Assembly (NCBI GenBank): GCA_026392815.1
Contig: JAPLBI010000015.1
Span: 1 to 11,269, forward strand
DNA: 11,269 nt
Reading direction: 5' to 3'
Origin: Actinomycetota bacterium
Lineage (GTDB): Bacteria > Actinomycetota > Actinomycetes > Nanopelagicales > Nanopelagicaceae
This document shows positions 1 through 3,461 of this stretch, one piece after another. The notes under the pieces were generated by a model that saw only the letters and a list, made by a program, of their open reading frames with translations, was not told the origin of the DNA and did no database searches. Each line of letters opens with the position of its first letter. Positions within the stretch are counted from its first letter, which is position 1. A program made the position numbers and the translations under genes.

Positions 1-717
1 TTTATCGCCAAGAGCATCAGCGGGGGGTATGACGGCCGCGGGGTTTGGAAGATAAAGAACCACGATGATTTGGATGAAGTTCTCAACGAGATTCCACAGC
101 TATTAATTGAAGAGTTGATTGAATTTGATTTTGAGATTGCAGTAATGGTTGCACGTTCAGCGCATAGCCAAGCAGTTACGTGGGCGCCAACCCAAACCAT
201 TCAATCTGATGGGATCTGTACCAGCACCATTTCACCAGCTCCCAAACTTTCTTCAGAACTTGCCGAGAAAGCGCAGCACCTAGCGCTCTCAATTGCGAAC
301 GACCTTGCCTTAATTGGAGTTATGGCAGTTGAGATCTTTGTTAAGGGAGAACAATTGTTTATCAACGAACTTGCCATGCGCCCACATAACTCCGGTCACT
401 GGACTATCGAAGGCGCAAAGACCAGCCAATTTGAACAACACTTGCGCGCCATTCTCGATCTTCCGTTGGGAGATCCTTCAATGGTTGCCCCTTACGCAGT
501 TATGGGAAATATCTTGGGCGGCGATAAAACAGATATGTTCCGGCCTTACCTACATTTAATGGCGCGTAATCCAGATCTGAAGTTCCATCAATATAAGAAA
601 GAGATCCGCAAAGGGCGAAAAGTTGGCCACGTTACCGTTGTAGGCGAAAACCTTCTAGAATTAACTGAAGTTATCGCCCACGCGCGCGACTATATGAGCG
701 GAGAAATCGATGAGTGA
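1..717 (+). CDS. purK: PurK, N5-carboxyaminoimidazole ribonucleotide synthetase (5' end outside window)
   Basis: PurK uses ATP and bicarbonate to convert AIR to N5-CAIR in cytosolic purine synthesis. The frame is open from base 1, so the gene begins upstream of the window; the methionine codon at 70 is internal. About 238 codons remain of a family usually 370-390 residues long. Visible are the ATP-grasp glycine loop GGYDGRG (bases 22-42), the ATP-grasp/substrate segment [14 protein letters not shown] (from about 361) and the C-terminal small domain with GHVTVVG (about 628-648). The stop at 715-717 overlaps the purE start by 8 bp, so the two genes are translationally coupled. Bases 443-485, coding for [14 protein letters not shown], reappear exactly at 1259-1301 inside the broken 3' end of ugd. 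Function is secure from motifs and from adjacency to purE. Confidence 0.95.
443..485 (+). repeat. 43-bp direct repeat, copy A (native, within purK)
   Basis: This stretch is identical base for base to 1259-1301. It is in frame in purK and encodes the conserved [14 protein letters not shown] segment, so this is clearly the source copy. The flanks differ immediately on both sides (t442 against c1258; t486 against c1302), which fixes the repeat at 43 bp. Confidence 0.97.
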
Positions 718-1216
718 TGTAGCAATCATCATGGGATCAGATTCTGATTGGCCGGTAATGGAAGAAGCGGCGAAGGCCCTTGATTCATTTGGAATTAGTT
801 ACACCGTCGATGTTGTCTCAGCCCATCGCATGCCAGAGGAAATGGTTGAGTTTGCAAAGAATGCAGCGACAAAGGGTTACAAGGTAATCATCGCTGGTGC
901 AGGTGGAGCTGCACATTTACCTGGAATGGTCGCCTCGCTTACAACGCTTCCAGTAATCGGTGTTCCAGTCTCGCTTAAGAATTTAGAAGGTATGGACTCA
1001 CTGCTATCAATCGTTCAGATGCCAGCAGGAATTCCAGTTGCAACTGTAGGAATCGATAACGCCAAGAACGCCGGAATTCTCGCTGCGCGCATTATCGGAT
1101 CTTCAGATGCAAACGTGGCAAAGAAAGTCGAAGCGCAGTTGGCCGATATTCGCGAAGAAGCTAAAGCAAAGGGCGCAAATTTAAACGCACGTCGAAATAC
1201 AAAAACTGGTTTTTAA
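710..1216 (+). CDS. purE: PurE, N5-carboxyaminoimidazole ribonucleotide mutase (class I)
   Basis: This 168-residue protein matches the normal length of class I PurE, which isomerises N5-CAIR to CAIR, the step after PurK. Landmarks are the phosphate-binding GSDSDW (residues 9-14), the catalytic-His motif SAHRMP (37-42, usually SAHRTP) and [14 protein letters not shown] (about 63-76). Presence of PurK next door agrees with the class I mutase rather than the class II AIR carboxylase. The ATG at 710 lies inside the purK stop region (8-bp overlap) with a purine-rich gcggag just upstream. The C-terminal tail is basic and complete, ending at 1216. Only three bases separate it from the original stop of the convergent ugd gene (1220-1222), and no terminator hairpin is visible between the two. 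Confidence 0.97.
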
Positions 1217-1219
1217 CTC

Positions 1220-1270
1220 TTAATCTGAGCGACCGAGAGCGTGAACGCGCCAACCTGCTGCGCGCCATTC
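1220..1270 (-). pseudogene. ugd: Detached C-terminal remnant of UDP-glucose 6-dehydrogenase
   Basis: Read on the minus strand in a frame different from the main ugd frame, these bases code for EWRAAGWRVHALGRSD and then a TAA at 1222-1220. The family characteristically ends with a segment like DPEEWRAAGWTYRALGR, so this is the authentic end of the ugd gene. It is cut off from the rest by the purK-derived 43-mer (which supplies its first few codons), the missing UDP-binding domain and a frame change. The true stop lies three bases from the purE stop, a compact convergent arrangement. Confidence 0.82.
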
Positions 1271-1301
1271 TCGATCTTCCGTTGGGAGATCCTTCAATGG
1301 T
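1259..1301 (+). repeat. 43-bp direct repeat, copy B (purK-derived insertion in 3' end of ugd)
   Basis: This is an exact copy of purK bases 443-485 in the same orientation, 816 bp downstream. It lies between two pieces of the ugd gene, read on the minus strand: DSPALDI ends at 1303 and the UGDH C-terminal remnant EWRAAGWRVHALGRSD ends at the stop 1220-1222. The left edge shares at least nine bases with what native ugd probably had, because tggcgcgca codes for W-R-A in the ugd frame. That is a microhomology signature. It is either a templated insertion with deletion of ugd sequence or an amplification/assembly chimera. Confidence 0.93.
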
Positions 1302-2313
1302 CGATATCAAGTGCGGGGGAGTCACGAACATCATCGCTATCGGGCTTAAATGTCGCACCGAGTACGGCAATTTTATATTGCGTTAAATCTTCTGAAAGAT
1401 CAGCGCGCACCACATCGATTACGCGCTGACGTGCACGTAGGTTGATGGCATCAATCTCGCGTAAGAATTCGAGCGCTTGATCAGCGCCAAGTTCTTGTGC
1501 GCGCGCCATAAAGGCACGGATATCTTTTGGCAGACATCCGCCACCAAAACCAATACCTGCCTGCAAGAAGCGATTTCCAATTCGTGGGTCGTAACCGATC
1601 GCTTTTGCAAGCACAGTGACATCTCCGCCGGCGGCTTCACAAACTTCAGCCATAGCGTTGATAAATGAAATCTTCGTTGCCAGAAATGAGTTTGCCGCAA
1701 CCTTTACAAGTTCCGCGGTTGGAAGATCGGCGCGAATCCATGGGGTTCCAAGTTCGATGATCGGTTTGTATACCTCTTTGAGAATCTCTTCAGCACGATC
1801 GTTAACCACACCAACCACGAGGCGGTTAGGGGTCAAAGTGTCTTCTACTGCAAAACCCTCACGAAGAAATTCTGGGTTCCAAGCTAAATCAGCCTGTGGT
1901 GCAGAAGTTGCCAAAATATCGCGCAGCGCTTGGGCGGTGCCCACTGGAACTGTTGATTTTCCAACAACGAGTGAGCCGTCCTTTAAATGTGGCGCGATCG
2001 CTGCAACGGAAGATTTCACATATGTTAAATCGGCGGCAAGGCCATCTTTACTCTGCGGTGTTCCAACACAAATAAAGTGAACGTCGGCATCAGCAACTGC
2101 TGAAAAATCTGTTGTAAATGAGAGTCGCCCGGTCTTCATCTCTGCTGCGAGCAAAGTATCTAAGCCTGGTTCATAGAAAGGAAGTTCGCCACGAGAAAGC
2201 AGATCTACCTTGTGCTGGTCGGTATCAACGCCAACAACTTCAAAGCCAAGTGATGACATACATGCTGCGTGAGTAGCTCCGAGATAGCCACAACCAATAA
2301 CTGAGAGTTTCAT
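1294..2313 (-). CDS. ugd: UDP-glucose 6-dehydrogenase, C-terminally truncated and probably disrupted
   Basis: Ugd oxidises UDP-glucose to UDP-glucuronate with two NAD+, feeding surface-glycan synthesis. The 339-residue frame has the NAD-binding GCGYLG (residues 7-12), ICVGTP (about 81-86), NPEFLREG, the active-site motif FGGGCLPKDIRAF with catalytic Cys260, and the start of the UDP-binding domain, AVLGATFKPDSDDVRDSPALDI. It then stops after two foreign residues (D, H). Family members are usually about 430-450 residues, so almost the whole C-terminal UDP-binding domain is absent. The frame breaks where a 43-bp copy of purK begins, and the real C-terminus survives beyond it out of frame. As written the product should lack half of its active site and be non-functional. 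It starts 23 bp after the LCP gene and may also have its own leaderless promoter (2322-2327). Confidence 0.9.
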   Translation of the reverse strand: MKLSVIGCGYLGATHAACMSSLGFEVVGVDTDQHKVDLLSRGELPFYEPGLDTLLAAEMKTGRLSFTTDFSAVADADVHFICVGTPQSKDGLAADLTYVKSSVAAIAPHLKDGSLVVGKSTVPVGTAQALRDILATSAPQADLAWNPEFLREGFAVEDTLTPNRLVVGVVNDRAEEILKEVYKPIIELGTPWIRADLPTAELVKVAANSFLATKISFINAMAEVCEAAGGDVTVLAKAIGYDPRIGNRFLQAGIGFGGGCLPKDIRAFMARAQELGADQALEFLREIDAINLRARQRVIDVVRADLSEDLTQYKIAVLGATFKPDSDDVRDSPALDIDH

Positions 2314-2336: not shown

Positions 2337-3461
2337 CTATTTGATTTCCCCGCATGGATTTTCCGCTGCGGTACGCGTCTTAAATTTATCGACAATAACT
2401 GGCTTTGCAGATGCTGATGCCGATGAAGATGAACTTGCTGATGGTGATGGAGTCACTTCATCTACCAGCGCTGCATCGTCGCGAATTCTCGTCCACAAAT
2501 CAGCGCTTAGAACTGGATCCCAAATTACAACCGATCCAGCGGTGGGATGTCTGCCATTTGCAGTCGTAAGTGGAACTGTCAAGGTACGAACATTTCCGGA
2601 AGAGAGTCCGCGCATCTGCTTAGCAAGATCCAATAGATCGTTCTTGCTTAAGTTCTCATCCATTTTTATGGTAGAGATCGCGGCATTTAAAAAGTTAACT
2701 AATTTAATTGGATTTAGCAGCACTCCAGAACTGGTTGCCTTCTTGATTACTGAACTCATAAATTGTTGTTGACGTTGCATACGTCCGATATCGCCGCGCC
2801 CATCAAAGTCACGGGTGCGAACATATTTGAGGGCTTCGATTCCATCAAGGGTATGTGTGCCAGCGCTGAGCACTAGGTGGCTCTTTGGATCATCGATATC
2901 TACCTTGGTACAGACTTCAATACCGCCAAGAGCATTTACGATTCCAGCGAAACCAGCAAAGCTCACTTCAATGTAGTGATCCATCTTCAGATTTGTAGCA
3001 CGTTCGATAGTTTCGATAAGAAGCGGTGCGCCACCGAATGCGAAGGCGGCATTTAACTTATTCTCACGATCAGGAATCTGCGATTTTCCATCTGTGCTCA
3101 AATGAGCCGGAATCGTTACGAGCGAATCACGCGGAAGTGATACCAGAAAGGCTTTATCGCGGTTCTTGCTGATGTGAACCAACAACATCGTGTCAGATCT
3201 TCCGCCAGCTGCAGTCTTGGTACTTCCAACGCGCAGGGCTTTCATCTCTTCTTTAGTTAGACCTTCACGCGTATCTGATCCAACCAATAAATAGTTAAGT
3301 GCTTTAGATGTTTTCTCAGGGCGATTATCTAGCCCAGCGAAGACGCTAATGCGATCGATCCTGCCGCTTACTTGGCCTAATCCGATCCAAGATAGCGATG
3401 CGAGAAGAACTACACCCACAGAAAGTGATGTAATAACCTTTACTGCTCGCGTCGACTTCAC
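2337..3461 (-). CDS. LytR-CpsA-Psr (LCP) family cell-wall glycopolymer ligase
   Basis: LCP proteins move lipid-linked glycopolymers onto peptidoglycan at the outer face of the membrane. This 374-residue protein has a short basic N-terminus, one membrane anchor (about residues 9-30) and an extracytoplasmic LCP domain. Conserved segments are GGRSDTM (86-92), SLPRDS (108-113), NKLNAAF (134-140) and the arginine-rich VRTRDFDGRGDIGRMQRQQQ (214-233), which carry the polyprenyl-phosphate and Mg-binding residues. The tail has a serine/alanine-rich linker (about 337-352) and no LytR_C domain. The start is a GTG at 3461: an in-frame TAG lies four codons upstream, and a TAGAGT -10 box ends six bases before it. 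It is divergent from the glycosyltransferase gene and upstream of ugd, which suits a wall-glycan locus. Confidence 0.93.
   Translation of the reverse strand: MKSTRAVKVITSLSVGVVLLASLSWIGLGQVSGRIDRISVFAGLDNRPEKTSKALNYLLVGSDTREGLTKEEMKALRVGSTKTAAGGRSDTMLLVHISKNRDKAFLVSLPRDSLVTIPAHLSTDGKSQIPDRENKLNAAFAFGGAPLLIETIERATNLKMDHYIEVSFAGFAGIVNALGGIEVCTKVDIDDPKSHLVLSAGTHTLDGIEALKYVRTRDFDGRGDIGRMQRQQQFMSSVIKKATSSGVLLNPIKLVNFLNAAISTIKMDENLSKNDLLDLAKQMRGLSSGNVRTLTVPLTTANGRHPTAGSVVIWDPVLSADLWTRIRDDAALVDEVTPSPSASSSSSASASAKPVIVDKFKTRTAAENPCGEIK
2410..2451. repeat. Degenerate hexamer repeat encoding Ser/Ala-rich linker
   Basis: Seven consecutive six-base units of the general form GATGNN (one of them changed to cttgct) run on the plus strand. 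On the coding minus strand they give the low-complexity proline/serine/alanine linker in the C-terminal tail of the LCP protein. Such tracts can vary in copy number by slippage. The unit is a multiple of three, so gain or loss would keep the frame. Confidence 0.6.

Follow-up and report, generated by a model that had tools for sequence, protein, structure and literature searches.

A short purK-derived patch in a truncated ugd gene of an actinobacterial draft genome, probably an artefact of reads or assembly

The window, by which we mean the whole 11,269-nucleotide stretch analyzed, contains no N and carries purK, an intact purE and, convergent with them, a gene that is probably ugd (Table 1). 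The product of this last gene matches the NAD-binding domain PF03721 over profile positions 1–187 of 187 (207.5 bits) and the central domain PF00984 over positions 2–92 of 94 (109.1 bits), but the UDP-binding domain PF03720 is incomplete, with 22 of 103 positions and 27.2 bits against a cutoff of 30; the intact relative L024 covers all 103. The general nucleotide-sugar dehydrogenase model TIGR03026 scores above its cutoff over positions 1–338 of 413. As the UDP-glucose models TuaD and AglM stay below their cutoffs both here and in the intact L024, we regard the name ugd, and UDP-glucose as the substrate, as probable only, judging from these profiles.

Table 1. Coordinates of the features at the ugd lesion (window positions; L004, L006 and L016 denote loci of relatives)
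Feature	Position	Strand	Basis
Copy source within purK	443..485	+	purK frame open from contig start to 717
purE, intact, convergent with ugd	710..1216	+	
Leftover native ugd 3' end (WRAAGWRVHALGRSD-stop), other frame	1220..1269	-	comparison with relatives
Left junction, 11-bp TGCGCGCCATT = purK 443-453 = native ugd of L004, L006, L016	1259..1269	.	
purK-only patch, 32 nt, copy of 454-485	1270..1301	+	repeat and relatives
Right junction, native ugd restarts at 1302	1302..1310	-	comparison with relatives
Truncated ugd frame, 339 aa, codons 1-337 native	1294..2313	-	ORF and domain profiles

The lesion consists of a copied patch and a deletion at the same site. The sole repeat reported in the window (seed 14, length at least 18) is an exact direct repeat of 43 bp, in which 443–485 of purK recurs at 1259–1301 of ugd, the two starts lying 816 bp apart. 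A preliminary description of the locus had called the latter an exact copy of the former, and the identity is indeed 43 of 43. The longest exact match within 20-kb stretches of a complete relative, 280 kb in all, was 20 bp, so the 43-bp match is not due to chance. The patch proper is nevertheless 32 nt rather than 43, because positions 1259–1269 are also identical to the native ugd of L004, L006 and L016. By comparison with 13 relatives, the sequence is native as far as 1269 and from 1302 onward, and base by base exactly 243 native nucleotides (81 codons) are absent in between in all 13 comparisons, for a net loss of 211 nt. The same description had put the replaced part of the UDP-binding domain at about 80 codons, in agreement with this count, and had correctly seen the frame stop two residues after DSPALDI, the protein ending DSPALDI-DH. 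When the assembly was searched for the missing segment with a 99-aa query, only the C-terminal remnant was matched, and the idea of a missing domain residing on another contig was rejected on this ground.

The two junctions differ. At the left one, 11 bp are common to purK and native ugd: TGCGCGCCATT matches 11 of 11 bases in L004, L006 and L016, against 5–10 of 11 in the remaining 28 of the 31 relatives tested. The shared bases at this edge had thus been noticed before, but their number is 11 and not nine. At the right junction, most relatives have a G before the window's first native bases where the window has the T of purK, and the purK sequence past the junction diverges from native ugd; the right join therefore appears to lack microhomology, with slight uncertainty as this is judged from relatives, the native right flank of the species itself having been lost. 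A template switch judged by microhomology at both junctions would thus find 11 bp on the left and none on the right. Beyond the patch, the native remnant WRAAGWRVHALGRSD-stop, with its stop at 1222–1220, lies in a frame different from that of the ugd ORF. The description of a true C terminus surviving intact in another frame applies to this remnant, though not to the E ahead of it: the codon of that E takes in base 1270, a purK base, and is thus partly patch-encoded, and the position is mostly K or L in relatives of 434 aa.

Relatives were obtained by a scan of named genomes, of which the best 80 of 584 were kept. The closest among these are nearly all metagenome-assembled genomes (MAGs). Some are titled Candidatus Planktophila (L035, L040) or Candidatus Nanopelagicaceae (L061, L062, L066), names that suggest a freshwater lineage; L034 and L067 carry odd names. 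The 65 loci (L004–L068) gave 58 distinct ugd ends, two others leaving the contig and five duplicating another row. In all 58 distinct 3' ends with a readable stop the protein has 433–437 aa, and the short form is private to the window assembly: a conserved gene is broken here. This alignment with close relatives had been proposed as a check, and it agrees with the proposed anatomy of a patch with loss of native sequence. In plasmid records, the matches to purE, purK and ugd were distant only. Against seven relatives, the first 330 codons of ugd are constrained and undecayed, with nucleotide identities of 77–82%, amino acid identities of 91–97% and differences mostly at third positions; the break is therefore either very young or not real.

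The assembly comprises 1,228,979 bases in 207 contigs and is 82% complete and 3% contaminated. We surveyed 40 of the contigs for errors, that of the window (C37) included, covering 350,642 non-N bases. They hold eight direct exact repeats of at least 20 bp, seven of them at least 26 bp, with the window's own counted, while the 280 kb of the complete relative hold none above 20 bp. Two of these repeats are private and fall within conserved genes. In argS, an exact 26-bp tandem duplication (L135, own contig C23, 6154–6205) splits the gene into two frames, and the pieces match, in different frames, the N-terminal domain of arginyl-tRNA synthetase and the remainder of the argS model. All 30 genus relatives with a match across the site (36 searched) lack the duplication, 27 of them being exactly 26 nt shorter and the other three 25, 28 and 29 nt. 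No second argS match was found in the same genome. As a frameshift in the only argS match is very unlikely for a living cell, this duplication very probably represents an error of assembly. A second tandem duplication, exact, 51 bp long and in frame, lies in an sdhA-like gene (L136, own contig C24, 399–502) for the flavoprotein of succinate dehydrogenase/fumarate reductase; it is absent in all 28 relatives matched across the full query and in one spanning partial match (36 searched). A 29-bp repeat pair in L141, inside a SucB-like protein that has two lipoyl domains, looks natural, and the repeats in L138, L139, L149 and L153 may be natural too, private status referring to the argS and sdhA comparisons only. 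The other 39 contigs surveyed contain, the L141 repeat aside, no second dispersed patch-like exact copy of at least 18 bp. Between contigs, the only exact matches of at least 22 bp join L118 to L147 and L135: L118 (4.4 kb) overlaps the exact ends of these two at 97.6% and 97.7% identity and is probably the sequence of a second strain bridging them.

Gaps were a further source of evidence. The surveyed contigs contain 17 short N runs of 1–106 bases, spread over 12 contigs, and the sizes of four were compared with relatives. A run of 106 Ns replaces 21–23 native bases (five relatives matched of six) and is about 85 too long; it is not a mask, since a mask would retain the native length. Measured against three relatives, a run of 28 Ns (L159) has 19 bases too many; a fourth relative gives an excess of 13 and a fifth one of 1. 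Another run lies in a region that is 112 nt shorter than in the one relative that could be matched on either side, and 55 bases ahead of this run are unaligned. The run in L131 agrees with four of six relatives to within 6 bases and is off by 9 and 21 from the other two. One of the four is clearly mis-sized. A search for copied patches beside all 17 runs (80 nt per side, same-contig matches of at least 14 bp) returned one inverted match and one self-palindrome only.

From the anatomy of the lesion and the other local errors observed in this assembly, we infer that the lesion is probably an artefact of reads or assembly and not a mutated gene. Sequencing coverage would have failed inside ugd, and the contig coming from the purE side would have had at its end a tail that was chimeric or had been extended wrongly. 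Through the 11-bp match, this tail would have crossed into purK close by and picked up 32 bases, after which the next piece, beginning CGATATC inside ugd, would have been joined bluntly with the loss of 243 native bases. A strain-mixture draft with wrong local joins suffices to explain what is seen. The artefact is supported by the other private local errors of the assembly (26 bp in argS, 51 bp in sdhA and one mis-sized gap), and a match of 11 bp on the left with none on the right fits one chimeric jump followed by one blunt join. The undecayed ugd and the perfect copy point to an artefact or to a very recent event. On the other hand, the errors in argS and sdhA are tandem duplications, a type different from a dispersed patch; the 40 contigs surveyed show no other such patch and the window no N; of the N runs compared, only one was clearly mis-sized; and a local donor with an 11-bp entry homology is equally expected of a real template switch. 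The preliminary description had favored a mutation in the cell or a chimera from multiple displacement amplification (MDA) over an assembly error, a preference that is not supported, given the other private local errors, the argS frameshift among them. It had also considered nine bases too short for an assembler overlap, an argument that leaves out of account a blunt join made after a chimeric read or contig tail. For MAGs, Chen et al. 2020 (PMC7111523) describe local assembly errors that no reads support, as well as scaffold joins with duplicated flanks. As in such cases, a wrong local join would here spoil a protein-coding gene, and the assembly likewise contains a gap of the wrong size and further private errors; the duplications described there flank N gaps, whereas in ugd a dispersed copy of 32 nt stands in for 243 nt.

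No biological interpretation of the lesion has been established, and a local artefact is the likelier reading. The template switch with deletion proposed at the outset keeps its purK-templated patch, its loss of native sequence and its left microhomology, but not its place as the likelier origin. We consider it unlikely that replication or repair very recently switched strands at the 11-bp microhomology to purK, some 0.8 kb away, copied 32 nt and came back to ugd 243 nt downstream of the switch, so that the dehydrogenase was inactivated. Such an event would account for the exact entry microhomology seen with some relatives, for a same-strand donor at a distance of 816 bp and for a precise patch that leaves purE intact. 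Microhomology is, however, absent from the right junction itself, no short form occurs among the 58 distinct 3' ends of relatives, and the same assembly carries other local errors. A hint of a guided return, found post hoc, comes from purK 514–526 (TTGGGCGGCGATA), 29 nt past the copied segment, which resembles the native right flank: it equals the flank of L006 in 13 of 13 bases and those of L007, L008 and L016 in 12 of 13, with 8–11 in the other 27 of the 31 relatives. Among 1496 random stretches of the assembly, the observed score was reached by 0 for L006, 2 for L007, 0 for L008, 26 for L004 and 24 for L033, these relatives having been picked after the match was seen, with L016 and the remaining relatives left out. 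This homology carries little weight, owing to the post hoc choice of relatives and because the window lacks purK 486–521, so that the second homology did not act in this form. It is improbable that a real two-step switch, with an 11-bp entry homology, a return homology of up to 13 bp at purK 514–526 and 36 nt skipped, recently inactivated a nucleotide-sugar dehydrogenase in a dominant strain of a streamlined actinobacterium, where phages, for instance, might have exerted selection on surface sugars. A hairpin explaining the skip of the 36 nt of purK 486–521 found no support (z 0.80; 152 of 200 shuffled sequences fold equally well).

An amplification chimera, from single-cell MDA or library PCR and assembled as genomic, is doubtful as a specific cause; it is a subcase of the artefact, and most of the probability that we give it falls within the latter. 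A jump at short microhomology to neighboring DNA is in its favor, and a 32-nt patch would presumably fit within one read, but one molecule would need two jumps, unless assembly made the join on the right. Chimeras produced by MDA are for the most part inverted, which would speak against this origin for the direct copy. MDA is also somewhat disfavored because the overlaps of the strain-variant-like L118 suggest a strain mixture, and thus a metagenome and not a single cell; many dispersed patches, as MDA might leave, were not seen either, with none of at least 18 bp in the surveyed contigs besides those of the window and L141. Far less credible than any of these is a natural, lineage-specific short ugd with a functional 339-aa protein. 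Its N-terminal and central domains are matched, but the UDP-binding domain is cut down and the old C terminus still follows out of frame, and we rejected this reading on the uniform length of the 58 relative ends. The artefact thus remains our preferred reading.

Microhomology-mediated template switching (MMBIR) leaves a short insertion templated nearby, a deletion at the site and microhomology at the junctions. The ugd lesion is alike in the nearby-templated insertion, the deletion and the microhomology at one junction; it differs in having no microhomology at the return junction, and its presence in a cell's DNA is only conjectural. In short-patch double illegitimate recombination of bacteria, a short stretch of the cell's own genome replaces another at microhomology, as would be the case here, except that the exchange in ugd loses 211 nt net and lacks a second microhomology. 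A literature search for the exact phrase short-patch double illegitimate recombination gave no match, one on Acinetobacter nothing on such a mechanism, judged by title and start of abstract, and one on MDA chimeras no match.

Read as biology, the join would enter a false loss of ugd and a false mutational signature into the record of the species. Seen as an error, it shows that broken genes in draft assemblies are flagged by exact private repeats of about 25–55 bp when these are checked against relatives. Should reads prove the lesion real, it would be a clean natural case of short-range templated insertion in a small-genome bacterium.

The surroundings of the gene can also be compared among the loci. 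In the window and others, such as L005–L010, ugd and purE almost abut; many relative loci have a similar 394–396 nt from the ugd stop to the purE match, and in L024 a 120-aa CoA-binding-domain protein (PF13380) lies between the two genes at 2907–3269.
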